A stretch of 64,000 nt of DNA from Saprospiraceae bacterium. GTDB taxonomy: Bacteria > Bacteroidota > Bacteroidia > Chitinophagales > Saprospiraceae. The stretch lies in contig JABAQQ010000013.1 of NCBI GenBank assembly GCA_019187225.1, forward strand, positions 310,001 through 374,000, in the 5' to 3' direction. The position numbers and the translations under genes are program-made. The first letter of the stretch is position 1. Each line of letters begins with the position of its first letter. Under the pieces are notes generated by a model. That model had not been told where the DNA came from, searched no databases, and was given only the letters and a program-made list of their open reading frames with translations. This document shows positions 33,726-54,183 of this stretch, piece after piece.

Positions 33726-34562
33726 ATGGCAGAAGAAAAAGGCTCAGTCGTGTATCGGGATATGCTGGATATCATCTTCTCCAACCGCAACAAAAGTTAT
33801 GGGGCCTATCAGCTCCGCCGCGATTATACCAAGTATTTAATGCGCGCTTTTGTCATCGGTCTGGCGTTGATAGCTCTCGCTTTTGCGCTACCATCTATCC
33901 TGAGTGCCGTCAAGGGTTTGGTTCCCGAAGAAAGGCCCATTGATGTTGTGGCCGAACTCGGCCCGCCACCGGATATTGACCCGAACCAACCACCGCCACC
34001 TCCACCGCCGCCGCCGCCCACTCCTCCGCCGCCGACCCGCTCGACGGTGAAGTTTGTGCCGCCGGTAGTCAAAAAGGACGAAGAGGTACAGGAGGAAAAA
34101 CCGCCGGCCGTGGAAGAACTCATCGAGAAAAAGGAGGACATCGGTACCGAAACAAAAAAGGGTACGGATGAAGCCCCACCTGCGATTGATGAAAATCCGT
34201 CGGAACTTCAGATCGTGGAGGAGCCGAAGGTCGTAGAGGAGAAAACGTATGAGATGTTCGATATTCAGAAACCGCCCAGCTTTCCGGGCGGTGAGAAGGA
34301 ATTGCTCAAGTTCCTGAGCGAGAACATCAAATACCCACCCTTGGCGCGCGAAAACAACATCCAGGGCACGGTTGCGCTCACTTTCGTAGTCGGCAAAAAC
34401 GGCTCGGTAACAGATGTGCAGATCGTAAAAGACATCGGCGGCGGTTGCGGCAAGGAAGCCGTACGCGTGGTGCAGTCTATGCCGAAATGGAATCCCGGCG
34501 AGGCCAATGGCAACCCGGTGAAGGTGCGTTTCACCTTGCCGGTGCGTTTCCGTCTGGAATAG
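33726..34562 (+). CDS. tonB: TonB energy transducer (first copy)
   Basis: A 278-residue TonB. The cytosolic start contains FSNRNKSYGAYQLRRDY, then one transmembrane helix (AFVIGLALIALAFALPSIL), a periplasmic proline-rich linker (residues about 83-110) followed by an acidic stretch, and a C-terminal TonB domain (NIKYPPLARENNIQGTV). It transmits proton-motive energy to outer-membrane receptors such as the one at 27808-30072. A terminator follows the gene at 34594-34632. Confidence 0.93.
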   Translation: MAEEKGSVVYRDMLDIIFSNRNKSYGAYQLRRDYTKYLMRAFVIGLALIALAFALPSILSAVKGLVPEERPIDVVAELGPPPDIDPNQPPPPPPPPPPTPPPPTRSTVKFVPPVVKKDEEVQEEKPPAVEELIEKKEDIGTETKKGTDEAPPAIDENPSELQIVEEPKVVEEKTYEMFDIQKPPSFPGGEKELLKFLSENIKYPPLARENNIQGTVALTFVVGKNGSVTDVQIVKDIGGGCGKEAVRVVQSMPKWNPGEANGNPVKVRFTLPVRFRLE

Positions 34563-34593
34563 CAGTTCACCGAACAATATTTCGCATATAAGG

Positions 34594-34632
34594 AAGCGGC
34601 ATCGCCTTTCAGGGCGGCGCCGCTTTTCTTTT
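34594..34632 (+). terminator. Terminator after first tonB
   Basis: Stem aagcggc/gccgctt with an inner gcc/ggc pair, followed by ttttctttt. Confidence 0.75.
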
Positions 34633-34787
34633 GCTCCCCCACGGTATTCTCAGCAAAGGGGTAAAAAAATCAAAAAAACACACTTACACACCCACCAAAA
34701 TCCTCACAGCCAGCATCTTACATCCAAAGGGCTCTTCGAAGGCTTTTGCTCCTCAAATACATTTTTTCACACTTAAACTTTTTCGTC

Positions 34788-35624
34788 ATGGCCACCTACG
34801 AATTCGTGTCCCCCCGGGACGCGCTGGACATCGTATTCGCGCACCGCAACCGCGCTTACGGCGCCTACCAACTGCGCCGGGCATATCCCCGTTACCTAAG
34901 CCGGGCATTCGCTATCGGTTTGCTGCTCATCTGTTTCGGCTTCGCCTTGCCGCAGATCCTGCACGCACTGGACGGCGATTTGGCCGAATCCGTTTACGTT
35001 GATATGGAGCGGGAACTCGGCCCTCCGCCCGATATTGATCCGGACCTTCCACCACCACCGCCGCCGCCGCCATCCACTCCGCCGCCGCCTGTACGCGCTA
35101 CTGTGCGCTTTGTACCGCCCACTCCCACACCGGACGAACTGGTACAGGAAGAACAACCGCCATCCCAGGAGGAAATACTGAACACAGATGCAGAGGTGGA
35201 CACAAAAGACCGCGCCTCCGAAGATGACGCTCCGCCTGCCCTCGATGAAGTTTCAGATTTTCCGCGGGCGGTGGAAACAGCGGCACACGCATCCGATGAA
35301 GGCGAATACGATATGGTGACGGTACAAAAGCCACCGACGTTCCCCGGTGGAGAGCACGCCTTGCTGAAATTCCTGGCCGACAACATACAATACCCACCCC
35401 TTGCCCGGGAAAACAACATTCAGGGCATCGTAGCGCTCTCCTTTGTCGTCAGCAAAGACGGCCGGGTCACGGATGTGAGCGTTCTGAAAGACATTGGGGG
35501 AGGATGCGGCAAGGAGGCTGTGCGGGTGGTGCAATCCATGCCGAAGTGGAGCCCGGGAGAAGCCAACGGTCATGCCGTCAAGGTGCGGTTCACGCTGCCG
35601 GTAAAGTTTCAGCTGCTGAACTGA
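34788..35624 (+). CDS. tonB: TonB energy transducer (second copy)
   Basis: A 278-residue paralogue with the same layout as the preceding tonB (FAHRNRAYGAYQLRRAYP, single helix, proline-rich linker, LARENNIQGIV domain). The identical length and closely matching C-terminal domain indicate a local duplication; the linker between the proline stretch and the C-terminal domain has diverged. The frame is open from 34746, but the ATG at 34788 aligns with the first copy. A terminator upstream suggests separate control. Confidence 0.92.
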   Translation: MATYEFVSPRDALDIVFAHRNRAYGAYQLRRAYPRYLSRAFAIGLLLICFGFALPQILHALDGDLAESVYVDMERELGPPPDIDPDLPPPPPPPPSTPPPPVRATVRFVPPTPTPDELVQEEQPPSQEEILNTDAEVDTKDRASEDDAPPALDEVSDFPRAVETAAHASDEGEYDMVTVQKPPTFPGGEHALLKFLADNIQYPPLARENNIQGIVALSFVVSKDGRVTDVSVLKDIGGGCGKEAVRVVQSMPKWSPGEANGHAVKVRFTLPVKFQLLN

Positions 35625-37872: not shown

Positions 37873-38301
37873 TTATCCTTTCATTGTGCCGGGCAGTATA
37901 TAACCTTGCGGCTTGCCGGCAGGTGCAGGATTGACGACTTCTTCGTTTTTCTCCTGAATTTGTTCCCGGCGGGCGCCCCAGGAACTGCCTTCCTGGAAGA
38001 AAGCGATGATCGCCCAGATCAGGAGCGCAGTGGGCAGCAGTACGCTCAATACCAGGCTGCGCACTTCGTATGCCATGTGCATGAAGTAAAAAATGATGAA
38101 ATAGGCTTTGAAAAGCGAAAAGCCAATCATCAGCAGCATATACAAATAGTGCCCGAATCCTTCCGTGAACTTAATACTGGGCACGATGTGGCCTTTTGCA
38201 AAAAGCGCGATGATGACTTCCACGATGGTCACGACGCCAAGAATCATCAGCCCGCGAAATACGAGGGCTTTTTGTTCTTCATATGTTTGATGTCCAGCCA
38301 T
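37873..38301 (-). CDS. Cytochrome c oxidase subunit IV (caa3 type)
   Basis: A 142-residue protein with three hydrophobic helices (LMILGVVTIVEVIIALF, YLYMLLMIGFSLFKAYFIIFYFMHM, LVLSVLLPTALLIWAIIAFF), matching the small prokaryotic COX4 family; FYFMHMAYE is typical. The ATG at 38301 was chosen because the longer frame from 38451 runs through the upstream cox3 gene. The leader contains gtgagag words like those of the CTCTCAC arrays. Confidence 0.85.
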   Translation of the reverse strand: MAGHQTYEEQKALVFRGLMILGVVTIVEVIIALFAKGHIVPSIKFTEGFGHYLYMLLMIGFSLFKAYFIIFYFMHMAYEVRSLVLSVLLPTALLIWAIIAFFQEGSSWGARREQIQEKNEEVVNPAPAGKPQGYILPGTMKG

Positions 38302-38340
38302 GAGCGAGAGTATGTGAATGGTGAAAATGTGAGAGAATGA
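38302..38340. repeat. GTGAGAG-type leader array before cox4
   Basis: On the minus strand the leader reads ctctcacat..ttcac..attcacat..ctctcgctc up to the ATG. It is a degenerate relative of the purL and rocD leader arrays. Confidence 0.45.
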
Positions 38341-38344
38341 GGGG

Positions 38345-39247
38345 TTACAGCAGGTAGAACACAAGGAACACAAATACCCAAACCAAGTCAACGAAGTGCC
38401 AGTACAGGCCGATCTTCTCCACCATTTCATAACCGTTACGGCGCGCGGCATACAGACCGCTCATCGCATTGATCATGATAATGGTGAGGAACACCACGCC
38501 TGAAAACACGTGAAAACCGTGAAAACCTGTAATGAAGAAGAACAAGGCTCCGAATGCCTTCGGCCCCAACTCCTGGATGCCGGTCTGGCCGGCATAGGCG
38601 CCGGTCGTATATTTGAGTTTGCGCTGGATGAATTCATCTTTCGTCGAACCGTCTTCCTGAGTCACCGGGTGCATGTGCAGCAGGTAAGATTGACCTTTGT
38701 GGAAAGTGTCGGGCGTGCCGTCGGGTTTTTTCGCCTCCGTGCCGTCGTCGTTCAGATAAACGCCGTCGGCAATATGACGTCCGAATGGGTTTTGCTGAAC
38801 CGTCATGTTTTCCTTGACAATCAGGGTTGTCCATTCATAAGCCTGGCTACCCAAGAAGGTGGCCCCGCCCAAAATGGTGAGGAACATCCAAAACACAACG
38901 CCGCGCTGGTTTTCGCGATGCCCTTCCTGTACCGCACGCACCATGGTAACGGAACTGAAAATAAGAACGAACGTCATGAACGTTACGAAAACCAGAGGCC
39001 AGTGCGCCTTCACAAAGGGAAATGACGCGAACACAAAATCAGGTTCCGGCCAGGTGGGCATGCTGAAGCGCAATGCGCCGTAAGCGATGAGGAATCCGGC
39101 AAAGGTGAATGCGTCGGACACCAGAAAATACCACATCATCAGCTTGCCATAACTGGCTTTCATCGGCTCCCTGCCGCCTTCCCAAAGTTCGGGGCCCTCG
39201 CCGTGTCCGTGCGTTTCGTGTGCGTGTGAAACAGATGTTTCTGCCAT
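38345..39247 (-). CDS. Cytochrome c oxidase subunit III with long periplasmic insert
   Basis: A 300-residue COX3 protein with a His-rich start (SHAHETHGHGEG). The family helices SDAFTFAGFLIAYGALRF, FMTFVLIFSSVTMV, FFFITGFHGFHVFSGVVF and YWHFVDLVWVFVFLVFYLL are present. Between the third and fourth helices is an insert of about 85 residues (NPFGRHIADGVYLNDDG ... HMHPVTQEDGS) absent from ordinary subunit III. It follows a second, shorter cox3-like gene. Confidence 0.9.
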   Translation of the reverse strand: MAETSVSHAHETHGHGEGPELWEGGREPMKASYGKLMMWYFLVSDAFTFAGFLIAYGALRFSMPTWPEPDFVFASFPFVKAHWPLVFVTFMTFVLIFSSVTMVRAVQEGHRENQRGVVFWMFLTILGGATFLGSQAYEWTTLIVKENMTVQQNPFGRHIADGVYLNDDGTEAKKPDGTPDTFHKGQSYLLHMHPVTQEDGSTKDEFIQRKLKYTTGAYAGQTGIQELGPKAFGALFFFITGFHGFHVFSGVVFLTIIMINAMSGLYAARRNGYEMVEKIGLYWHFVDLVWVFVFLVFYLL

Positions 39248-39275
39248 GATAATCAGTCAGTTATTATAGATCTTA

Positions 39276-39362
39276 GTTGGTTGATGAAGGTTGATGAGGG
39301 TTGATGAAGGTTGATATGGGTTGATAAGATAAACTTTCAGAAACCTTTATCAACCTTATCAA
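39276..39362. repeat. GGTTGATGA word hairpin
   Basis: Five ggttgat words (39278-39326) face cctttatcaaccttatcaa (39344-39362). It fills the gap between the two cox3 genes. Confidence 0.8.
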
Positions 39363-39367
39363 TATAT

Positions 39368-39946
39368 TCAGGATTGAGTCAAAAAGAATCCGATCAGGTA
39401 TATCCACAGCACATCCACAAAATGCCAGTATTGGCACACGAGTTCGAAGCGCTGTCTGCGGCGCGCAGTGGGCCTGAACGGCAACACAAAAGCGTGCACC
39501 ATCGCCACGATCAGGGCGGCAATTCCGCCCAGAACATGCGCGGCGTGTATGCCGGAGATCACGTAAATGAACGAACTGGAAGGATTGACCGTAAAAGTCG
39601 CTCCGATATCCGTCATCGCCTGCCACCCTTTATACTGCAACACCACGAACAGAATCCCCAATAAAAACGTCGCGATCAACAAACCTTTGTACCATTTCTC
39701 CTTTCCTTTTTTGAAGGAAGTGTAGGCATAATGAAGCGTCACGCTGCTCATCACGATCACCACGGTATTCAAAAAGAAGATGTCGGGCAATTTGAACTCC
39801 AGCCAGTTGCCCGCCGACCTCCGCACCACATACGCGCTCGTGAAGGCGGCAAACATCATCACCATGCTGCCGATGCCCACCCACAGCGCTAACTTCTGGG
39901 GGAGTATTTTACTTTGGTTGTATTCAGGAGATGGAATAGCTCCCAT
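39368..39946 (-). CDS. Cytochrome c oxidase subunit III (short form)
   Basis: A 192-residue COX3-like protein with five helices (LALWVGIGSMVMMFAAFTSAY, FLNTVVIVMSSVTLHYAY, GLLIATFLLGILFVVLQY, FIYVISGIHAAHVLGGIAALIV, YWHFVDVLWIYLIGFFL). HAAHVLGG and YWHFVDVLW are family hallmarks. It is 31 bases after ctaB. Paired cox3 genes of different length are frequent in ACIII-caa3 clusters. Confidence 0.9.
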   Translation of the reverse strand: MGAIPSPEYNQSKILPQKLALWVGIGSMVMMFAAFTSAYVVRRSAGNWLEFKLPDIFFLNTVVIVMSSVTLHYAYTSFKKGKEKWYKGLLIATFLLGILFVVLQYKGWQAMTDIGATFTVNPSSSFIYVISGIHAAHVLGGIAALIVAMVHAFVLPFRPTARRRQRFELVCQYWHFVDVLWIYLIGFFLTQS

Positions 39947-40977: not shown

Positions 40978-42831
40978 TTAATGCCCGTGATCGTGTTCCC
41001 CTTCTTTCAGCGGAACAAACTGTGGGATAAACTCTTCTCCGCCTTTTCCATAGTCATAAGACCAGCGTTGTACCGTCGGAATATTGCCCGGCCAGTTGCC
41101 GTGACCCGGCTGGATGGGAGTGGTCCATTCCAGCGTATTCGAGCCCCATGGATTCTTAACGGTCAGTTTGCGGCCGCTGAAAATGGAGTAAAAGAAGTTG
41201 ATAATGAACAAAATCTGCAGGAAAAATACGACGATGGCCGCCACCGTGATGAACTTGTTCAAGTCCACAAAGTGTTTGAACGAGTCAAAGTTTTCGATGC
41301 TGTAATAACGACGCGGCACACCGGCCATGCCTGTGTAGTGCATGGGCCAGAAAATGGCGTAAGCGCCGATCAGCGTACCCCAGAAGTGAATTTTGCCGAG
41401 CGTTTCGTTCATAAACCGGCTGAACATCTTGGGGAACCAGTGGTATATACCGGCAAACATCCCGAAGAAGGCCGCAATACCCATCACAATGTGGAAGTGC
41501 GCCACTACGAAGTAGGTATCGTGCATCTGAATATCAATCGCAGAGTTGCCGAGGAAGATACCCGTCAGACCACCGGAAATAAACATGGACACAAAACCGA
41601 CCGCAAACAAACTGGCGGCATTGAACCGGAAGTTGGATCCGTATATCGTTGAAATCCAGTTAAACACCTTAATCGCTGAAGGCACTGCTATGATCAGCGT
41701 GAATACGACGAAGAAATTGCTGATGAATGGATTGACTCCCGCCATGAACATATGGTGCGCCCACACGATAAACGAGAGGAAACCGATGGCCAGGATCGAA
41801 TAGATCATCGCGCGATAGCCGAAGATCGGCTTGCGGGCATGTACCGACAGCACTTCGGACACAATACCCATCGAAGGCAGGATGATGATGTACACTTCGG
41901 GGTGACCGAGGAACCAGAACAGGTGTTGGAAAAGAACCGGGCTACCGCCGATACGGTCAAGTATCTGGCCACCTACCACGATTTCACTCAGGTAGAACGA
42001 AGTGCCCATACTGCGGTCAAACATGAGCAGCAATACACCCGAGAGCAGTACCGGGAACGACAACACGCCGAGTATGGCCGTAACGAGGATGGCCCAAATC
42101 GTGAGCGGCATGCGCCACATATTCATACCTTTCGTGCGCAGGTTCAGAATGGTCGTAATGTAGTTGATACCGCCCAACAATGACGACACTATGAACAACG
42201 CCATACCTACAATCCACATGGTCATGCCCGCTTTAGACCCATCGGAGGCCTGAGGCAGCGCGCTCAAGGGCGGATAGGCCGTCCATCCACCCGAAAATGG
42301 CCCGGTGCTGAGGAACAGCGACAAAAACATCACCACACCGGCCAGGAAGAAGAACCAGTAGGAGAAGGCATTGAGCAGAGGCGAGGCCATATCGCGGGCA
42401 CCGATCTGCAACGGAATGAGCAAGTTGGCAAAAGTGCCGCTCAGGCCCGCCGTCAGCACGAAGAACACGAGGATGGTACCGTGCATGGTCACCAGCGAGT
42501 AGTAAAATTCCGGATCGAGTTTGCCGATACCCGCATCATTTACTGTGATCCATTTGCCTAAAATTGGTTTCAGCCAAGCCATGTCCGCCTCCGGGAAACC
42601 GAGTTGCAGGCGGAAAACAATGGACATCGCGGCACCGACGAATGCCCAGAATATCCCTGTGATCAGGAACTGGCGCGCGATTATTTTGTGGTCGGTGCTG
42701 AAAATATAGGTCGTCAGGAAGTTCGACTGAAACTTATCGCCGTGATGATGCTCATGAAAATGGTCATCATACCCCAATTCCTGGGTGAGTTTTTCTTCCA
42801 ACGTATCTGCGGCGGTAACTGCGTGAGCCAT
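40978..42831 (-). CDS. Cytochrome c oxidase subunit I
   Basis: A 617-residue haem-copper oxidase subunit I. The Cu-B and cross-linked His-Tyr site is in FWFLGHPEVYIIILPSMG, WAHHMFMAG follows, and the haem ligands are in VVAHFHIVMG. Low-spin haem His is in LVTMHGTILVFF. The N terminus carries His-rich HFHEHHHGDKF and the C terminus HDHGH. The in-frame TTG upstream was rejected in favour of the ATG at 42831. Confidence 0.96.
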   Translation of the reverse strand: MAHAVTAADTLEEKLTQELGYDDHFHEHHHGDKFQSNFLTTYIFSTDHKIIARQFLITGIFWAFVGAAMSIVFRLQLGFPEADMAWLKPILGKWITVNDAGIGKLDPEFYYSLVTMHGTILVFFVLTAGLSGTFANLLIPLQIGARDMASPLLNAFSYWFFFLAGVVMFLSLFLSTGPFSGGWTAYPPLSALPQASDGSKAGMTMWIVGMALFIVSSLLGGINYITTILNLRTKGMNMWRMPLTIWAILVTAILGVLSFPVLLSGVLLLMFDRSMGTSFYLSEIVVGGQILDRIGGSPVLFQHLFWFLGHPEVYIIILPSMGIVSEVLSVHARKPIFGYRAMIYSILAIGFLSFIVWAHHMFMAGVNPFISNFFVVFTLIIAVPSAIKVFNWISTIYGSNFRFNAASLFAVGFVSMFISGGLTGIFLGNSAIDIQMHDTYFVVAHFHIVMGIAAFFGMFAGIYHWFPKMFSRFMNETLGKIHFWGTLIGAYAIFWPMHYTGMAGVPRRYYSIENFDSFKHFVDLNKFITVAAIVVFFLQILFIINFFYSIFSGRKLTVKNPWGSNTLEWTTPIQPGHGNWPGNIPTVQRWSYDYGKGGEEFIPQFVPLKEGEHDHGH

Positions 42832-42880
42832 AGCCAATGAATTTTTTTTTTGTGAGACCTTTTGTCGGGTTCGGTGTCGG

Positions 42881-43068
42881 TTTTTAGTTATTGGTTCCTG
42901 GTTGTTGGTTATTGGTTGTTGGTTCCTGGTTGTTGGTTATTGGTTGTTGGTTGTTGGTTGTGGTAATATGATTTGGGATCAACTATTCCTAACGCTTGAA
43001 ACCAAGAACTAAGAACTAATAACCAGGAACCAAGAACTAATAACCAGGAACCAGGAACTAAAAACCAA
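42881..43068. repeat. TTGGTTCC word hairpin touching the cox2 stop
   Basis: About ten words of the type ttggtt, ttcctgg and ttgttgg (42889-42962) face aaccaagaacta, aaccaggaacc words (43000-43068). The right arm ends two bases before the cox2 stop codon. Confidence 0.9.
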
Positions 43069-43069
43069 C

Positions 43070-44575
43070 TCAAATATTCGGGGTCAGTATGGTAAATTCT
43101 GTCCGGCGATTCTTCGCGCGGTTTTCATCCGAGTCATTGGGAGCGAGCGGTTTGGTATCGCCGTAACCCCGCGCCTGCAACCGGCTCTCGGATATACCGC
43201 GATCGGTGAGGTATTTCACTACCGAAGCCGCTCGAGCCTGCGAAAGGGTCATATTCGACGCCGGGTCGCCAACATTGTCCGTATGGCCTGCCACTTCGAT
43301 CATCATATTCGGATAAGCATTCATTCCGGTCACGAGGTTGTCCAGTTCATAGCGGCTGTCTGCCGTAAGGTTGGCCGAACCCGTTTCAAAATTGACATAT
43401 TTGAGGGCCAATGTTTTGTCCGAAGCATGTGCCGACTCGAGCGCTCTTTTCACACTTTCACTGAATTCTTTGGCGCGTTGGCGCACTTCGACGTCAAGCA
43501 CTTTGCCTTTGTTCGGATCGTCGTCTTTATTGCGGATTTGCGTCATATAGAACGACTCCTGTTTTCTGTACCACGCGTCATACTCTTCCTGCGTCACCAC
43601 TTTGAAAATCCGTTTCATCGAATAGTGGCCTTTACCGCAGAGTTCGGCGCACGCCAGCTCATATTCGAACTTTTCCCAGCGCTTGGGTCCCGTCGGGTCG
43701 GCGGGGTCGGCAGGCACATTGAAATCATCGTATTTGCGCAGTTCGTTGCGGTATTCAGCCGTCGTTTTAATGGGTGTAAACACAAAGTAAGTAGGCATAC
43801 CCGGCACCGCATCCATTTTAACACGGAAATGAGGCAGGTAGAAATTATGCAATACGTCTTTTGCAATGATGCGCACGCGTACTTTTTTACCTACCGGCAG
43901 ATAAAGTTCCTGACCCGGCAATACGTCGTCCCATGTTTTGGGATCGGTGAAATCCATGCCCAACTGGTTGTTGGCGGTCGTCAGTTTGAAGTTGCGCGTG
44001 CCAAGTTTGCCGTCAGGGCCGGGATAACGAATGATCCAGTTGAACTGCTGGCCTGTCGCTTCGATTTCCATATAATCTTCATCGGGCTTCACATCGGCCA
44101 TCACCGTATTCCAGGCATTGAGGCCGCGTACCACGAGGATGGTCATCACCACTGCCGGTACGGCAGTCCAGATCAACTCGAGTCGGTTGTCATGGGCAAT
44201 GAATTGAGCTTTACGGCCTTCCTGCCAGCGATATTTGTAGGCGAACCAAAAAAGCGCGATGTGGGTGATCACAAACACAATTCCCGTCAGCACAAGGGTG
44301 ATGTTGAACATGTCGTCCAACATACTGCCATGCGCCGACGCTGATTCGTGCGGACCGTAACCCATCATTTCATTTTTGTATCCCCACGCGGAAACAAACA
44401 CACCGACGAGGAAGAAAACTAAAAAGCCAACGGACAGCCAGCCATTCCATTTGCTGTTGTCACGAAACACTTCGCGCTCACCCTTGATTTGCGCGGTGAG
44501 TTCAGTGACTTTCCCGATTTGTACCAATACGATGGAGATCAGAAAGACGCAGAGTAATATGATTAGCGCAGTCAT
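43070..44575 (-). CDS. Cytochrome c oxidase subunit II fused to an OmpA-type peptidoglycan-binding domain
   Basis: A 501-residue protein. Residues 1-20 form one helix, followed by two further helices (about 45-65, 90-115) and a cupredoxin domain with the binuclear CuA site CAELCGKGHYSM (about 310-320). A helical linker leads to a complete OmpA C-terminal domain (about 385-501): VNFETGSANLTADSRYELD, EVAGHTDNVGD, SQARAASVVKYL, RLQARGYGDTKP, NRRTEFTI. The Asp of HTD and the Arg of QAR, 15 residues apart, match the diaminopimelate-binding pair of OmpA. Both domains face the periplasm, so the fusion could tie the oxidase to the cell wall. Confidence 0.93.
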   Translation of the reverse strand: MTALIILLCVFLISIVLVQIGKVTELTAQIKGEREVFRDNSKWNGWLSVGFLVFFLVGVFVSAWGYKNEMMGYGPHESASAHGSMLDDMFNITLVLTGIVFVITHIALFWFAYKYRWQEGRKAQFIAHDNRLELIWTAVPAVVMTILVVRGLNAWNTVMADVKPDEDYMEIEATGQQFNWIIRYPGPDGKLGTRNFKLTTANNQLGMDFTDPKTWDDVLPGQELYLPVGKKVRVRIIAKDVLHNFYLPHFRVKMDAVPGMPTYFVFTPIKTTAEYRNELRKYDDFNVPADPADPTGPKRWEKFEYELACAELCGKGHYSMKRIFKVVTQEEYDAWYRKQESFYMTQIRNKDDDPNKGKVLDVEVRQRAKEFSESVKRALESAHASDKTLALKYVNFETGSANLTADSRYELDNLVTGMNAYPNMMIEVAGHTDNVGDPASNMTLSQARAASVVKYLTDRGISESRLQARGYGDTKPLAPNDSDENRAKNRRTEFTILTPNI

Positions 44576-44666: not shown

Positions 44667-46259
44667 TCAATGGTGGCCGCCGCCTTCCACTTGTTCGCTT
44701 TCGATGAGGGCCCCCGTTTCGTGGTGCAGGCTTTCTTCGAGGAACGGGTCTTTCCACGGAATGAGCGACACGCGTTCGAGTTGGCCGAAGAGGAAGAAAA
44801 GGAACAGACTGAGGAAGCCGATCATTACGCCAATCTCCTCCAATCCCGGAACGGTGAAGCCCAGGCGGAAACTGTTGGGTTCCGCCGCTTCAGCATGGCT
44901 GCCACCGTGTGCATCGCCGCCATGTCCGCCCTCGTCGCCATGACCGGCGGCTGCAGTTGCTGCTTCTGCTGCCGGTGTGCCATGATCGGCAGCGGATTCC
45001 GTTTGTGCTGCGGCTTCTTCGCTGTGAGCGGTATCCGCATCGCTGTGGGCTGCGGCGGGGTCTTCTGAATGCGTCTCAGCGGGCTGTTCGGCGGTTGTTG
45101 CAGTTTCTTCGTGTTGGGCACCCGAAATGGGCGCTGCGCTGTGCGAGGTTTCGTGACCTCCTTCCGCCAATTCTTTCGCTTCAAAAGCTGCGATGCGTGC
45201 ACCCGGTTTGATCATATAGAAAAAGTCCCACCAGTGGCCGAAGAAAACGATGAGCGCCACGAAAAACATCGTCCCGAATTTGCGTTTGGTATCGTTGCGC
45301 ATGAGGATCAGGAAAGGCGCCACGAAGTTCATCAGGAGATTGCCCCAGAAGAGCACCGGGTAATGGTTCATCCGCTCTTTGAAGTAAATCGTCTCTTCGC
45401 CGTTGTTGGCATACCAGATGAGCATGAACTGGTCGAACCAAAGGTAAGTCCAGAAAACGCTGATGCCGAACAAATATTTACCCACGTCGTGCAGGTGATC
45501 GTGCGTAACATATTCGAGGTAACCCTTCGATTTCAGATAGATGATGATCAAAACGGTAAATGAAATGGAACCCAGCCACATGGATGCGGTGGAATACCAG
45601 GCAAACATGGTGCTGTACCAATGGGGGTCGAGCGACATTACGGCCTGCCACAACAACACCGGGCTGAGGAATCCTGCAATCGGAAGGAAAGAGGCCGACC
45701 ACCTGCGGATCTTTTTGTAGTAGTCGAAGGAGGCGGTTTCTTCGGTATCCTGCGCAATGGAGAGTTTGCGGACATTGCGGGCCCAGAAATACCACAGGGC
45801 CAGAAAGCCTACCGTTGCGATGGTGAAAAAGACCGGGTTCAAAAAACCTTTCTTGCCGGCAATGATGCGGTCGTAATGCGGCGCAGCCGGATCGGTGACA
45901 TTGACGTTCGGGTCGTTCCAGTGATACAAATGGTGAAAATGCAACCACACTCCCGCCGCAATGATACCCATGAGGATAATACCGACCCACATAAATTGGC
46001 TGGTCCCCTCCAAAATGCGGCGGATAACTGTATTCCAGCCGGCAAACGCAGTGATCTGCGCCGCCATAAAGAACATCGCCATCAACGCAATGCCGGTGAA
46101 ATACACCGAGTTGTGCAGGAAATTGGTCCAGAAACGGGTGTGGTATTCGTCGTCGTTGAGGAACGACAGGACGAGGCACAACACACCCAGCGCCATGCCG
46201 CCGTAGAGGATGCGCTTGGTTTTGCCTTCAAATACAAATTGCGTATTGGTCAGATTCAT
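44667..46259 (-). CDS. actF: Alternative complex III subunit ActF
   Basis: A 530-residue membrane protein with about ten helices, related to ActC/NrfD, e.g. NSVYFTGIALMAMFFMAAQITAFAGW and FLSPVLLWQAVMSLDPHWYS. Between the last two helices lies a hydrophilic insert of roughly 95 residues (about 365-460) rich in Ala, His, Glu and Gly (AHSDADTAHSEEAA, AAAGHGDEGGHGGDAHGG). It is the last act gene and precedes cox2 directly. Confidence 0.9.
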   Translation of the reverse strand: MNLTNTQFVFEGKTKRILYGGMALGVLCLVLSFLNDDEYHTRFWTNFLHNSVYFTGIALMAMFFMAAQITAFAGWNTVIRRILEGTSQFMWVGIILMGIIAAGVWLHFHHLYHWNDPNVNVTDPAAPHYDRIIAGKKGFLNPVFFTIATVGFLALWYFWARNVRKLSIAQDTEETASFDYYKKIRRWSASFLPIAGFLSPVLLWQAVMSLDPHWYSTMFAWYSTASMWLGSISFTVLIIIYLKSKGYLEYVTHDHLHDVGKYLFGISVFWTYLWFDQFMLIWYANNGEETIYFKERMNHYPVLFWGNLLMNFVAPFLILMRNDTKRKFGTMFFVALIVFFGHWWDFFYMIKPGARIAAFEAKELAEGGHETSHSAAPISGAQHEETATTAEQPAETHSEDPAAAHSDADTAHSEEAAAQTESAADHGTPAAEAATAAAGHGDEGGHGGDAHGGSHAEAAEPNSFRLGFTVPGLEEIGVMIGFLSLFLFFLFGQLERVSLIPWKDPFLEESLHHETGALIESEQVEGGGHH

Positions 46260-46322: not shown

Positions 46323-47138
46323 TTATTGCACAGGCGGTGGAGCCGGAGCGACACGCGCCGGGCCGGTGGCCTCGCCTTTTGCCGGTTTTTCAATATTGCT
46401 CAGCGTATTGGCCGTTTCGTTGTATTCGAGGTTTTTCGCTTTCGCTTGCAGGGAGCGGATGTAATGGATCACCTGCCAACGCTCTTCAAACGAAAGTTTG
46501 TCAGAGTAACCGCCCATCACGTTTCTGCCGTACATAATGCCAAAGTAGAAACGGCCATTGCCGGCAGCGATCATGTCGTCGCCGATCAGGTTTTTCGGCT
46601 GCGCCGGGTATTTACTGTCAGGCATCGCCACGAGCCAGCCCTGTCCGTCGCCTTTTTCACCGTGGCAGATGCCGCAGTTGACGTTGTACAGCAGCTTGGC
46701 TTGTTCAAGACCGGCTTTGGTAATCGGAAAGGGATTATTCACCATCTCTTGTTCGCAACGGAGACGCTCTTCTTCCGTGTTTTGATAATAAAAAGGCGCC
46801 TGCCCGTTCACCGGAGCCGCAATGGCATTGGAAGCGTTTTTGCCGCGTACCACGTCCAGCGCGGAAGCGTCGCCATAATAGACCGCCGTATAACCGCGGG
46901 GAATGGTGCCTTCCACCTTGCCATGCGGTTGGGAAAGCTGCGCCTTGGAGAAGGTATTTTTGTCGTCGTCCCAGTGGTTCCAATAATAATCATTGAAATG
47001 ATTGGCTTCGTAGCCGACTGAGTGGAACATATCGGGCATGTATTCATGACCGGGTTTGTTGATGCCCGCCGGCGAACAGAGCGAAAAGAACCAGGCAAAT
47101 AATGCAACTCCGAGAATCGCGCCAATTGCGTATTTCAT
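46323..47138 (-). CDS. actE: Alternative complex III monohaem cytochrome ActE
   Basis: A 271-residue c-type cytochrome and probable lipoprotein (lipobox FSLC at residue 21). The single haem site is CGICH at 155-159, and YGRNVMGGY probably supplies the distal Met. It is thought to pass electrons from ActA haems towards the oxidase. The C terminus is Pro/Ala rich. It lies between actD and actF. Confidence 0.93.
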   Translation of the reverse strand: MKYAIGAILGVALFAWFFSLCSPAGINKPGHEYMPDMFHSVGYEANHFNDYYWNHWDDDKNTFSKAQLSQPHGKVEGTIPRGYTAVYYGDASALDVVRGKNASNAIAAPVNGQAPFYYQNTEEERLRCEQEMVNNPFPITKAGLEQAKLLYNVNCGICHGEKGDGQGWLVAMPDSKYPAQPKNLIGDDMIAAGNGRFYFGIMYGRNVMGGYSDKLSFEERWQVIHYIRSLQAKAKNLEYNETANTLSNIEKPAKGEATGPARVAPAPPPVQ

Positions 47139-47230: not shown

Positions 47231-47761
47231 TTACATCATTTTCACATTCACCTCCGCTGCGCCGGTTTTGGTAAAAAATCCCTGGAGGTTTTTCACATCA
47301 CCTTCCGGCGCATCGCTTACGTCGAAGGCGATGCAGAATTTGTCGTCTGTGATGCGGTTGTCCAACGTCTTGGCTTTCACACCCGGCCACATGCCGCAGA
47401 CGGTGTAAAAAGTAATGGTCATGCCCCAGGCGGAATACAACACAGTGTTTTCGAAAACGATGGGAATAAACGCCGGCACCGACCAATAGGGTTTGCCCCC
47501 GAATACGATCGGCCAGTCGCTGGTAAATATCCAGGTCATCGCCAGGAATGCGAACAAAGCGCCAATTGCGCCGTAAACGAAGCCCATGATGTGCAGGCGG
47601 CTTTCTTTTAAACCCAGGATCGGGTCCAGACCGTGCACCGGAAACGGCGTGAACACATCCATGATGTCCAGATGTTGCGCATTGGCCGTTTTGATGGCGC
47701 TTTTCAATTCTTCTTCGTCGTTGTACAGTCCGTAGAGGACTTTTTTGCTTTGAGCAGCCAT
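47231..47761 (-). CDS. actD: Alternative complex III subunit ActD
   Basis: A 176-residue DUF3341 protein with two transmembrane helices (GFVYGAIGALFAFLAMTWIF and VLYSAWGMTITFYTVCGMW) and soluble ends. The motif DVFTPFPVHGLDPILGLKESR is diagnostic of ActD. It lies in its usual place between actC and actE. Confidence 0.93.
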   Translation of the reverse strand: MAAQSKKVLYGLYNDEEELKSAIKTANAQHLDIMDVFTPFPVHGLDPILGLKESRLHIMGFVYGAIGALFAFLAMTWIFTSDWPIVFGGKPYWSVPAFIPIVFENTVLYSAWGMTITFYTVCGMWPGVKAKTLDNRITDDKFCIAFDVSDAPEGDVKNLQGFFTKTGAAEVNVKMM

Positions 47762-47873: not shown

Positions 47874-49307
<1,434 letters not shown>

Positions 49308-49398: not shown

Positions 49399-52300
49399 TT
49401 AAGAATAAAGTTCTTCGTTGCTGTTATTGACTTTCGCCGAGTAGCTGACTCCCGGACGAACGTTGATTTCTTCCAATACTTTGTATGCGATAGGCGCATT
49501 TGCCTTCGTCAGTTTGCTCACTTCGCTGTCGGGGTTGTTGAGGTTGCCGAACACGATGGCGCCGGTGGGGCAAGCCGTCTGACAAGCCGTGCGCACGTCA
49601 TTGTCCATGATGGCGCGCCCTTCGCGTTTGGCCGTGAGTTTGCCCTCCTGGATGCGCTGAATGCAGAATGTGCATTTTTCGATGACACCGCGCGTACGAA
49701 CAGTGACATCGGGATTGAGCACCATACGAACGAGATTGTCGGCGAGGAAGGGTTTGTCGTCGCCTTCGAGGCGGAACACTTTCTCTTCGTTGGCGGGCCA
49801 GACGTCGGCAGTCGTATAATCGAGCCAGTTGAAACGGCGCACTTTGTAGGGGCAGTTATTGGCGCAGTAACGCGTACCGATACAGCGGTTGTATGCCATT
49901 TGATTGATGCCTTCCATCGAGTGGTTGGTGGCATTCACCGGGCACACATTTTCGCACGGAGCGTTGTCGCAGTGCTGGCACATCATCGGCTGATACACCA
50001 CTTTCGGGTTTTCAAAATCGCCGTAGAAATAGCGGTCAATGCGAAGCCACGTCATTTCATGGTGGCGGTGTACTTCTTTCTTACCTACGACCGGCACGTT
50101 GTTTTCGCTCACGCAGGCTACCTGGCAGGCGCCGCATCCGACGCACGCATTCATGTCCACATACATCCCCCATTTCACCCCCGTCCCGAAAAAGTCGGTG
50201 CGGTCGGGGTACAGTGTCTGGACGTTGAGGTGTTCGGCTTCTTCGTGGAAAGCCTCCATTTTTTCCGCGAACTTGGGCAGTTCGTTGACATGCGTATGGA
50301 AAATGATGGAGCGGTCGGTCAAAGCGCCCTGGAAACCTTTCCAGCCGAGGGTTTTTTCGTCCACATTGATGACTTTGCCCTCGTCCTTGCCCATCGCCTG
50401 GACGCCCATGGTGTGGTGGAACTGGACGCTGGGGAAGTGTTTGTCGGCGCCCACTTTGTCCGACACTTTTACATTGCCGGCAAAATACTGGATCAGACCG
50501 CCTTCCACCGGCAGCACAGGATTCACATACACGCCGTAACCGACACCGCAGCCGCCGGATTCGCGGCCTCCGCCGAGGGCGATGGCCACCGTGCCGGCAG
50601 GCTGACCGAAAGTGCGGACGACCGTGCAGGCCAGCTTTTGGCCGTTGATCTCTACTTCCACGTTGTCGCCGTCGTTGAGACCTTTCCAGCCATTGATCTC
50701 GTTCACGCCATCCCATTCAACCGGAATGCTGAGATAGTTGCCCCATACGGTACGGGTCACCGGGTCGGGCATTTCCTGCAGCCAGGGATTGTGGGCGTAC
50801 TGACCGCCGCCGATGTTGACGGTTTCGTAGAAAGAAATTTCGAGTTCGCTGCCGGAGGGTTTCGTTACGGCATCGGGATTGAGCGACACCTCATTCATCA
50901 CGGCGCCGACTTCGGTAGCGGGGAACTCCAGCACACCATCGTGAAGGCTCATGTCCCAAAACGCGGCAGCTGTGCTGTACTTCGTCTGGCGGCTGAACAG
51001 GTCACTTGTCCAATGCGATTTAAGATATTGATAATAAGGCTGTTCGTCCTGGCGGTTGAGGTTGGGGCTGTCGGCCCATTCGAGCAGCGTGTGCTCGGCC
51101 TGGCGGGTTTTGAACAACGGCGCGATGGTCGGTTGGATGAGGCTGAGGTGACCGGCTTTCGGCTCGGCATCGCCCCATGACTCGAGGATATGGTGCGCCG
51201 GAGCGGAATGGGTGCATTCGGCGGTCGTTTCATCTATGATGCCGTTGAATGAGATGCGCGTACCGACTTTGGCGAATGCTTCTTTGAATTTGGCGGCATT
51301 GGGCAGATCCCAAGCGGGATTGGCACCCCATACAATGGCGACCGAAACCTGTCCGGCGTTCATTTCATCTATCAGGCGCATCATTTCGCGTTCGTCGCCC
51401 TGGCGCTGATACGAAACGGCGTTGAAATCAATCGTCGTGTTCAGGTTGCCGAGCATACGGTTGATCTCATTGACATAGAGTTGCTCCATGACGTTGTTGG
51501 AGCCGCTCACCACCAGCGATTTGCCTTTGTGGTTGGCGAGGTCCTGCGCCATTTTTTTGATGGCGGCAGCGGATTTTTCATTGCTGAGTTTGGGCCCGCC
51601 GCTGTTGCCGGTCAGTTCGTTGTACAGCGCAACGATGGCTGCGCCTGTTTCGCTCGGCTTGATGAGAATGCGATTGTCGGCATTCGAGCCGGTGAGCGAC
51701 ATGTGGCTTTCCACCTGGTAATGGCGCGACATTTTAGCGCCTTTTGCGCCGCGGATCTTGCGATTTTTCGCGTATTCACGGGCGTATTCCACCGGGCTGA
51801 TCCAGGTGCCGAGGAAATCGGCGCCAAAAGAAACGATGACATCCGCTTCGCCGAATTTGAAATTCGGGATCACCCGTGCGCCGAACGATTGTTCGTTGGC
51901 AGCGAGCAGGGCCGCACTGGAAACGGGGTCGTATGTGACCACGCGAGCGGTCGGGTATTTGGTCGTAAATTCCGCAAGCGCTTTTTTCGCCGTCGGGCTG
52001 ATGATGGTCTGCGTGATCAGGCGGATGTTGCCCCCCGCAGATAGTTTCGATTTTACCTCGCGGTCGAGTGCATTCCACTCCATTTTGTTCACATTGCCCT
52101 CCTTCACGGCCCCCGGATGCTGGATGCGGCGCGTATCGTACAGGCTCAAAACGGAAGCCTGGGCGCGGGCGCTGGTACCGCCTTTAGTGACGCTGCTCAG
52201 GGTGTTGCCTTCGATCTTGATAGGGCGGCCTTCGCGCGTTTTTACCAGAACGGCGCAATAATCGCCGCCATTGACAAAAGACGATGCGAAATAATTGGCC

Positions 52301-52554
52301 ACGCCCGGCACGATTTCGTCGGGCTTGGAGACATAAGGAATGGCTTTTTTGACCGGGATTTCGCAGGAAGCGGCAACCGTCGCCGCACCGAGACCGAAAC
52401 CGAGCAGTTTCAAAAAATCGCGACGGTTGGTTTCCCATTTACCGTCGGTTTGGTCCAAGTTCTCGACCGAAAATTCCTTTTCGGCCGCCTGCAGGAACGA
52501 CTCGTCCCGCATCAAATCTTCGGTGCTGACCCAAATACCGTTATCGTGGTGCAT
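49399..52554 (-). CDS. actB: Alternative complex III subunit ActB (Tat-exported, molybdopterin-like plus Fe-S)
   Basis: A 1051-residue protein with a Tat signal (RRDFLKLLGFGLGAATVAA, followed by SC as a possible lipid site). The large N-terminal half is a molybdopterin-oxidoreductase-like domain that in ActB binds no cofactor. The C-terminal part holds four ferredoxin-like Cys groups: CVGCGACQVAC near residue 800, CQHCDNAPCENVCP, CIGTRYCANNCPY and CTFCIQRI...CQTACP. Electrons from the quinol site in ActC pass through these clusters to the ActA haems. The Tat pathway gene tatA lies at 63065. Confidence 0.96.
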   Translation of the reverse strand: MHHDNGIWVSTEDLMRDESFLQAAEKEFSVENLDQTDGKWETNRRDFLKLLGFGLGAATVAASCEIPVKKAIPYVSKPDEIVPGVANYFASSFVNGGDYCAVLVKTREGRPIKIEGNTLSSVTKGGTSARAQASVLSLYDTRRIQHPGAVKEGNVNKMEWNALDREVKSKLSAGGNIRLITQTIISPTAKKALAEFTTKYPTARVVTYDPVSSAALLAANEQSFGARVIPNFKFGEADVIVSFGADFLGTWISPVEYAREYAKNRKIRGAKGAKMSRHYQVESHMSLTGSNADNRILIKPSETGAAIVALYNELTGNSGGPKLSNEKSAAAIKKMAQDLANHKGKSLVVSGSNNVMEQLYVNEINRMLGNLNTTIDFNAVSYQRQGDEREMMRLIDEMNAGQVSVAIVWGANPAWDLPNAAKFKEAFAKVGTRISFNGIIDETTAECTHSAPAHHILESWGDAEPKAGHLSLIQPTIAPLFKTRQAEHTLLEWADSPNLNRQDEQPYYQYLKSHWTSDLFSRQTKYSTAAAFWDMSLHDGVLEFPATEVGAVMNEVSLNPDAVTKPSGSELEISFYETVNIGGGQYAHNPWLQEMPDPVTRTVWGNYLSIPVEWDGVNEINGWKGLNDGDNVEVEINGQKLACTVVRTFGQPAGTVAIALGGGRESGGCGVGYGVYVNPVLPVEGGLIQYFAGNVKVSDKVGADKHFPSVQFHHTMGVQAMGKDEGKVINVDEKTLGWKGFQGALTDRSIIFHTHVNELPKFAEKMEAFHEEAEHLNVQTLYPDRTDFFGTGVKWGMYVDMNACVGCGACQVACVSENNVPVVGKKEVHRHHEMTWLRIDRYFYGDFENPKVVYQPMMCQHCDNAPCENVCPVNATNHSMEGINQMAYNRCIGTRYCANNCPYKVRRFNWLDYTTADVWPANEEKVFRLEGDDKPFLADNLVRMVLNPDVTVRTRGVIEKCTFCIQRIQEGKLTAKREGRAIMDNDVRTACQTACPTGAIVFGNLNNPDSEVSKLTKANAPIAYKVLEEINVRPGVSYSAKVNNSNEELYS

Positions 52555-52692: not shown

Positions 52693-54093
52693 CTAATAAT
52701 GGCATTTTTGGCATTCCAGTCCGCCGATATCTTCGACGGTGACCTTTTCACGGGTGCCGTCTTTGAGTTCATTGTGATAGCGCTCGTACTGGTCGTAGTA
52801 AGGGTTGTCTTTGAATTTCACTTCGGTCTCCCGGTGACAATTGATGCACCAGCCCATACCGAGTGTGGAATATTGGTATACCACCTCCATTTGTTCGACC
52901 GGGCCGTGGCATTTCTGGCAAGCCACCTGACCGACGGCAACGTGCTGGGAATGGTTGAAGTAGGCGTGGTCGGGCAGGTTATGGATACGTACCCATTCGA
53001 TGGGTCCCTGTATCTTGCCGTTGGAGTCGTTTTTCAAAGCCTTTACGATGCCTTCCCATTGATTGGCAACGGTCATGCGGCCGTTTTCATCCATCGAAGT
53101 CAGGTTATTGGCCGCCATGTATTCCTGGCCGATCCATTTTTTATAAAGGTCTTCGATTTGTTTTTCGCTCCAGTATTCGTAGTCAGCAATGTATTTGCTC
53201 TGAATAGGGTCGAAACCGATGGACGCAAATATTTTAGTGATCTCGGAGGTGCCGGTGATCGTCCCTTTTTTCACTGCCGCGTGGCAATTCATACAGGTAT
53301 TCGTGCCGGGAATGGACGAGTGTTTGGAGCGGCGGGCCGAGTCGTGACAATACTGGCAATCAATTTTATTGACCCCCGCGTGGATTTTATGGCTGAACGC
53401 TATGGGTTGGTCAGGTTGATAGTTCTGCTGACGTCCCATATTGGTGGCGTTGTCCACCGTTTTGTATCCAAAGATCAGCGTAAGGGCAAAAACAAGAAAA
53501 GCGATGGCGCCTTTGCTGGTGAGTGTTTGCACCAGTGTTTTCTGTACGGGCGCCTGCCCTGCCTGCACGCGGGTGATGTTAGCCAGGTTGTTGATGATGC
53601 GCATCAGAGCGAATGCGAGGAGCCCCAGAATGACGGCGAGACCGACAAAAAGCCAGGGGGTTCCTGATTTTTTTTCGGTCGTTGCAACATCGGTCGGAGT
53701 TGTGCCGCCAGCGCCTCCGGGTTTCTTATTGTATTCCTGGTTGACATACAATATGATCCCTTCGATCTGATCGTCGGTCAGGCCCGTGAAGTTGTTCATC
53801 AGCACCGGTTTCCACTTGCCCCACAATTCATTGGCGTAGGGATGGCCGGTAGCGATGAGCGCCTGCGAATTGCGGATCCATGCATAAAGGTCTTTGCGCG
53901 GATAGGCCGACCAGCGTTCCTCCATGCCTCCGAGTGCGGGGCCGGTGAGGTTGTCCTTCATGTTTTTGTTGTGGCAGGCGGCGCAGTTGGCGATAAAAAG
54001 GTTTTTACCTTCCTCGACGTTGGGCGCTGCAGTGAGCGAGATCGTGGCAGTGATGGCGAGCACGATGACCCAACAAATGCGTTTCAGCAACAT
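52693..54093 (-). CDS. actA: Alternative complex III multihaem cytochrome ActA with N-terminal monohaem domain
   Basis: A 466-residue c-type cytochrome. After a signal/anchor helix comes a class I cytochrome domain with CAACH at residues 37-41, a transmembrane helix (WLFVGLAVILGLLAFALM) and another helix, then five haem sites CQYCH, CMNCH, CQKCH, CINCH and CQKCH in a periplasmic domain. That makes six haems; the N-terminal domain is fused to the standard pentahaem ActA. The codon track from a TTG at 54117 adds eight residues; the ATG at 54093 was chosen. It opens the operon. Confidence 0.94.
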   Translation of the reverse strand: MLLKRICWVIVLAITATISLTAAPNVEEGKNLFIANCAACHNKNMKDNLTGPALGGMEERWSAYPRKDLYAWIRNSQALIATGHPYANELWGKWKPVLMNNFTGLTDDQIEGIILYVNQEYNKKPGGAGGTTPTDVATTEKKSGTPWLFVGLAVILGLLAFALMRIINNLANITRVQAGQAPVQKTLVQTLTSKGAIAFLVFALTLIFGYKTVDNATNMGRQQNYQPDQPIAFSHKIHAGVNKIDCQYCHDSARRSKHSSIPGTNTCMNCHAAVKKGTITGTSEITKIFASIGFDPIQSKYIADYEYWSEKQIEDLYKKWIGQEYMAANNLTSMDENGRMTVANQWEGIVKALKNDSNGKIQGPIEWVRIHNLPDHAYFNHSQHVAVGQVACQKCHGPVEQMEVVYQYSTLGMGWCINCHRETEVKFKDNPYYDQYERYHNELKDGTREKVTVEDIGGLECQKCHY

Positions 54094-54183
54094 ATCGTGT
54101 GTAGTTGTTTTTCTCAAATCAGGGCAAAAAGTTTGTTTTTCGTTGTTTTTCGGAGTAAGACCAATGTCAGCGTTTTGTCAGCG

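Follow-up and report, generated by a model that had tools for sequence, protein, structure and literature searches.

An OmpA-type domain on cytochrome oxidase subunit II of Saprospiraceae, a putative peptidoglycan tether for the ACIII-oxidase supercomplex

In the window, which is the whole 64,000-nucleotide stretch of Saprospiraceae DNA analysed, cytochrome oxidase subunit II (Cox2) was fused at its C terminus to an OmpA-type domain, which would quite probably tether the ACIII-oxidase supercomplex to peptidoglycan by non-covalent binding. In the loci examined, the OmpA domain was carried by Cox2, by the adjoining ActE or by neither, and never by both; the two subunits are neighbours on the periplasmic face. 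With an extra domain of the wall-gripping type, the respiratory complexes of these cells may be fastened to the wall.

The fused gene and its operon

One open reading frame occupied exactly 43070-44575 of the minus strand and encoded 501 amino acids with no internal stop (Table 1). Three Pfam domains were identified in it, all above their gathering scores: COX2_TM (6.2e-8, residues 76-149), COX2 (2.4e-9, residues 171-260, profile positions 3-84 of 120) and OmpA (2.1e-22, residues 396-490, profile positions 2-98 of 98, thus complete). A continuous frame from the CuA site into a full OmpA C-terminal domain, as given in the preliminary description, was thereby confirmed, and the domain search with the COX2 and OmpA models proposed there gave the expected result. 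The COX2 match stopped at profile position 84 of 120, short of the CuA motif CAELCGKGHYSM, which was identified by visual inspection. Together with His243 it completed the pattern H...CxExCxxxHxxM, the residues of which we take to be the CuA ligands, and Cys309, Glu311, Cys313, His317 and Met320 were invariant in 66 sequences. The NCBIfam CoxB equivalog cut-off was failed (125.4 bits against 147.7) while the Pfam domains and the ligands passed, indicating a divergent subunit II.

The AlphaFold2 model, built from an alignment of 66 sequences, had a mean pLDDT of 87.5 and a pTM of 0.69. Averaged in blocks of ten residues, pLDDT was 84-95 in the OmpA domain and dropped to 60 at the CuA motif block 311-320. 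Helices were predicted at residues 2-31, 33-65, 83-114 and 130-158 of the membrane part, and the borders of the cupredoxin domain (residues 161-337) were picked from this model. In Foldseek searches the oxidase half matched solved COX2 chains, and the OmpA half resembled 5wtl (0.9 Å over 107 columns, 38% identity). In 90 distinct fusions the CuA Met was separated from the start of the OmpA domain by 60-93 residues, with a median of 71.

The act operon was located directly upstream of the cox operon, with actF assigned by position only. This is the order actABCDEF followed by cox genes known for the ACIII-aa3/caa3 supercomplexes of Rhodothermus marinus and Flavobacterium johnsoniae. With six CxxCH motifs, ActA exceeds by one the five haems of its Rhodothermus counterpart, in keeping with the additional cytochrome c domain reported for F. 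johnsoniae ActA (PMC5928083). A long His/Glu/Ala-rich low-complexity insertion was present in ActF. The gap between cox2 and cox1 (42880-43065) was full of simple repeats (ttggttattggttgttggtt and similar), and at 33726-35624 there was a tandem pair of TonB-like proteins that contain proline-rich linkers and, on visual inspection, resemble one another.

Table 1. Coordinates of the fused gene, its parts and the surrounding operon in the window
Feature	Position	Strand	Basis
actA, multihaem, six CxxCH motifs	52693..54117	-	
actB, 4Fe-4S	49399..52554	-	Pfam
actC, NrfD type	47874..49307	-	PF03916, 4.7e-21
actD	47231..47761	-	PF11821, 1.8e-55
actE, monohaem cytochrome c of ACIII, 271 aa, without OmpA here	46323..47138	-	
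actF	44667..46259	-	Position and length; 0 Pfam families
Cox2-OmpA fusion gene, 501 aa	43070..44575	-	ORF, Pfam
N-terminal membrane part, aa 1-160	44096..44575	-	Pfam COX2_TM, AlphaFold2 secondary structure
Periplasmic CuA cupredoxin domain, aa 161-337	43565..44095	-	Pfam COX2, Foldseek to solved COX2 chains
CuA motif, aa 309-320	43616..43651	-	Read by eye
Linker, aa 338-387, predicted helix 361-380	43415..43564	-	AlphaFold2
OmpA C-terminal domain (peptidoglycan-binding type), aa 388-498	43082..43414	-	Pfam, AlphaFold2, Foldseek, PDB sequence match
Ligand motif HTDNVGD...LSQARA, aa 431-448, with Asp433 and Arg448	43232..43285	-	
cox1	40978..42837	-	PF00115, 3.3e-144
Two cox3-type genes, 39368-39946 and 38345-39247	38345..39946	-	PF00510
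cox4-type gene, start codon uncertain	37873..38451	-	PF03626

Conservation of the fusion and of the ligand pair

The order survey covered 198 genomes, 37 of the window's family (f1) and 161 of other families. In 34 of the 37 genomes the protein was fused in frame, the alignment running from residue 1-6 to at least residue 496, and in the other three (G186, G190 and G192) it ended at residues 356-366. OmpA-fused Cox2 was also present in at least seven of the 161 genomes outside f1. A survey of fused cox2 in relatives had been called for in the preliminary description, which also named a frameshift or assembly error between the domains as the finding that would overturn the fusion. Such an error was excluded by the single frame in these genomes, and with the same frame found in Portibacter marinus and Neolewinella persica DSM 23188 the probability of an artefact is practically nil.

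When 398 genomes of the family were drawn, 348 were matched at E 1e-60, and among the matches listed unfused Cox2 was found in five species of the window's own genus (G229, G312, G450, G530 and G539). Four of these five genomes are small (3.4-3.9 Mb), and in L424-L427 (from G312, G530, G229 and G539) ActE was without OmpA as well. The named records gave 69 fusions in the best 80 loci, obtained with fused proteins as query and titled mostly Saprospiraceae or Bacteroidetes; Portibacter, Membranihabitans, Lewinella and Neolewinella are among the fused named strains. One contig titled as a Thermoanaerobaculia MAG (L143) encoded a Cox2-OmpA 82% identical to that of the window, and this MAG is probably misnamed or mixed.

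In the phylum survey 84 of 395 genomes were matched at E 1e-50, and none of the listed matches outside the order aligned past query residue 393. Fusions to a different OmpA type would escape such an alignment; that of G118 in the order survey was detected solely through its long frame. Fifty plasmid records matched at E 1e-20 and none of them spanned 80% of the query. Ten of their organism names were listed, all of them proteobacterial. No stretch fitting the peptide patterns was observed in viral contigs.

Codon comparisons were run six times, and since two pairs were identical, four distinct relatives remained. Nonsynonymous p-distances of the OmpA part were 0.127-0.188, against synonymous values of 0.677-0.863, and those of the COX2 part were 0.052-0.153, so the OmpA part evolves faster. 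The OmpA part is evidently under purifying selection, looser than that on the COX2 part, with dS mostly saturated.

Asp433 and Arg448 are 15 residues apart, which bears out the spacing that had been compared with OmpA. PMC6572160 identifies D271 and R286 of Acinetobacter OmpA as diaminopimelate-binding residues. Among distinct domains of at least 85 residues, those too decayed for the model being left out, the Asp/Arg pair was complete in 113 of the 116 Cox2 fusions from the family, in all 18 ActE fusions, all seven Cox2 fusions outside the family and all four HppA fusions, and in 51 of 52 free OmpA domains. The Asp was absent in the three family exceptions (L463, L087 and L091). In L094/L217 a decayed domain could be aligned to OmpA by hhalign (probability 94.6, E 6.7e-8), with no Asp/Arg motif in it. 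The expectation that homologues keep the pair thus held for 113 of the 116 and failed for the other three and for this decayed domain.

Carriers and descent of the OmpA domain

A scan of all frames with our own OmpA model revealed three loci (L216, L219 and L221) in which Cox2 was without OmpA and the domain was fused to ActE instead. Further ActE fusions were found when the family was searched with the ActE-OmpA protein, and one ActE that was run against Pfam (L387) gave cytochrome c and OmpA (2.4e-21). Altogether 181 loci were collected, consisting of the window, the 80 named-record loci and 100 further stretches; OmpA was on Cox2 in 96, on ActE in 19 and on both in none. Frames of both Cox2 and ActE were present in 167 loci, reduced to 155 by duplicate removal (138 of the family or the named records and 17 outside). 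Within the 138 distinct operons the domain was on Cox2 only in 79, on ActE only in 17, on neither in 42 (one of them with a decayed Cox2 domain) and on both in none, proportions that are not frequencies because unfused genomes were sought on purpose. Six of the 17 operons outside the family had it on Cox2 and 11 on neither.

For the 138 operons, exclusivity between Cox2 and ActE gave a Fisher p of 1.2e-7, a value that ignores kinship. Few independent events underlie the either/or pattern, and a test on independent pairs was without power. Because the two states occur in different clades, the lack of operons with both may be due to descent alone.

According to the scan, two OmpA frames belonged to neither Cox2 nor ActE. 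L423 (168 aa) groups with the ActE domains of its genus and is a putative cut ActE. The other, an OmpA frame of the f8 type (L464:18908-19399, minus strand, G151), 164 aa and cut at the edge of the stretch, adjoins an act operon of the family whose Cox2 has its own OmpA.

The domain was also fused to membrane pyrophosphatases (HppA), whose C terminus is also extracytoplasmic. The pyrophosphatases of G053 and G024, in which Pfam showed H_PPase and OmpA, as it did in G058, end in a domain that shares 67% and 60% identity, respectively, with that of the f8 type. HppA-OmpA fusions were found in at least four of the 198 order genomes (G053, L268; G024, L257; G058, L333; and, by search and domain scan, G052, L319), 177 of which gave a match in the search. 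Two further proteins, L258 and L269, were DUF937-OmpA by Pfam. In the tree the domain of L269 clusters with those of HppA and f8-type Cox2. L258 is encoded in the same genome as the window and matches the f8 type better than any other protein of that genome (46%), yet it lies outside that set of the tree.

The OmpA tree contained 111 domains, including a sample of 34 Cox2 domains of the family, after six of 117 rows were removed (five long branches, one of which was the family Cox2 of L463, and L302). Cox2 of f8, f18 and f19, the four HppA, L269, three other proteins and L464 formed one set (100/99), and the f8/f18/f19 Cox2 set stood apart from the Cox2 domains of the window's family. One clade of f1 and f8-type Cox2 domains was rejected (AU p 0.0014). 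On this tree the two Cox2 types carry OmpA domains of apparently separate descent, and the rejection of a joint clade implies either two fusions or one fusion with the OmpA part later replaced. A single origin was not rejected for ActE (AU p 0.59), Cox2 of f1 (0.54), Cox2 of f1 and f4 (0.54), or Cox2 of f1 and ActE (0.42); in three of these tests the constrained tree scored higher than the unconstrained one, which is thus not the best tree.

Along a core tree built with FastTree from the Cox1, ActC and ActB of 83 operons, the OmpA state changed 21 times, 15 of them within the family, and gain and loss could not be told apart by count. In L435 (E 0.007) and L434 (E 0.068), the tail of the unfused Cox2 gave weak matches to the last part of an OmpA domain, which look like relics. 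By eye, the Cox2 tails of other family genera (L077-L079, L088, L094, L103-L114, L211 and L217) were unlike one another, being decayed OmpA, Gly/Thr-rich, His-rich, charged, or Lys/Ala repeats. The tail of L077-L079/L211 reached an hhalign probability of 35 with OmpA, which was not counted as a match, and the fold predicted for the L211 tail (mean pLDDT 51) was left out. Judging from these sequences, the Cox2 C terminus appears to be especially prone to change in the family.

Proposed tethering to the wall, its alternatives and its precedents

In many Saprospiraceae, subunit II of the aa3-type oxidase has a C-terminal, periplasmic OmpA domain on a linker of about 50-70 residues, and the Asp/Arg pair of this domain would probably grip the diaminopimelate of peptidoglycan non-covalently and reversibly. 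The inner-membrane ACIII-oxidase supercomplex could in this way be tied to the wall, as MotB ties the flagellar stator. Peptidoglycan binding by the domain is predicted from its sequence, and the supercomplex itself is presumed from the Rhodothermus and Flavobacterium homologues. Because other lineages hang OmpA on ActE, the tether would serve the assembly and not subunit II as such, and placement on either Cox2 or ActE supports an anchor for the ACIII-oxidase assembly. Its purpose could be to hold the complex in place, or to keep membrane and wall together. The earlier proposal that the fusion fixes the supercomplex to the wall is favoured by the architecture, the conserved Asp/Arg pair and the either/or placement. 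On the other side, 42 of the 138 operons do without the domain, including L424-L427 of the same genus, so the putative anchor is dispensable; three of the 116 family domains lack the Asp, and in one lineage (L094/L217) the decayed domain is without the pair.

The main rival is a clamp, in which the OmpA fold stays off the wall and strengthens the contact between ActE and Cox2, or steadies some other periplasmic subunit of the supercomplex. In the Rhodothermus supercomplex, of which a 20 Å map of ACIII-caa3 exists, ActE is the direct donor and is placed beside subunit II (PMC5928083); the domain on two subunits that are neighbours in this model, on both in 0 of 181 loci, would suit a clamp, as would the lineages that hold the domain with no Asp/Arg pair. 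A clamp needs no ligand pair, however, and the pair is present in 113 of 116 Cox2 and 18 of 18 ActE domains; moreover, the recruited OmpA domains have two separate ancestries, and one type also occurs on HppA, a pump without ActE, so that a clamp is judged unlikely. Still less credit is given to a neutral passenger, a fusion by chance read-through with no function, which is very improbable. Frequent gain or loss, with the 15 family state changes on the core tree, and decay of the domain in some lineages would be in its favour, but nonsynonymous divergence is low, the ligand pair is retained, and domains of two descents on Cox2 are joined by fusions on ActE and HppA.

A role in envelope integrity shares the chemistry of the tether and differs from it in purpose, being a variant whose probability overlaps with that of the tether reading. 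The complex would serve as an inner-membrane rivet linking membrane and wall, to the benefit of the envelope and not of respiration. Similar domains on HppA (at least 4 of 198 genomes) and on the two DUF937-OmpA proteins point this way, but envelope integrity alone leaves the recurrence on subunits of the ACIII-oxidase operon unexplained, and it is put forward tentatively, as a somewhat doubtful purpose.

Returning to the tether, the chances seem about even that, in this order of Bacteroidota, selection has repeatedly favoured the attachment of energy-converting complexes to the wall. If so, anchors would have been gained on separate occasions by Cox2 (two types), ActE and membrane pyrophosphatase, and respiratory and ion-pumping units would be fixed relative to peptidoglycan instead of diffusing freely in the membrane. 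The importance of respiratory supercomplex placement is under debate, according to PMC5928083. Related species differ in whether the putative anchor is found on the oxidase, on the electron donor, on neither, or in decayed form, and so provide a natural experiment, through which the effect of fixing a respiratory supercomplex to the wall is directly testable, the oxidase-anchored ones including named strains.

The claim that no described oxidase is anchored in this way was upheld in the open-access literature searched, where none was found, and domain-architecture databases may list the architecture. The words OmpA, peptidoglycan and cell wall were absent from the main text of PMC5928083. The nearest precedents of an anchored oxidase are MotB and a PsaB with an OmpA-like end.

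The MotB/PomB stator likewise consists of a transmembrane protein, a linker and a periplasmic C-terminal OmpA domain, and the window's OmpA domain matched PomB and MotB chains in the PDB. MotB is part of an ion-driven motor, whereas the carrier in the window is a redox enzyme, and in place of the stator membrane part Pfam gave COX2. The Cox2-OmpA protein is thus not a MotB, but its anchor role may be MotB-like. In photosystem I, PsaB (7f4v_aB, presumably of Gloeobacter violaceus) is a bioenergetic core subunit with an OmpA end (residues 759-866, E 8e-16). No text on wall binding of this end was found in the literature searched. The chain belongs to a photosystem and the window's carrier is an oxidase; it provides one precedent for a wall-type domain on a bioenergetic complex. 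OmpA of Capnocytophaga gingivalis (5wtl, 5wtp) was among the closest solved domains, 5wtp being the best by sequence; it is labelled outer membrane protein A, whereas the carrier in the window is an inner-membrane enzyme.
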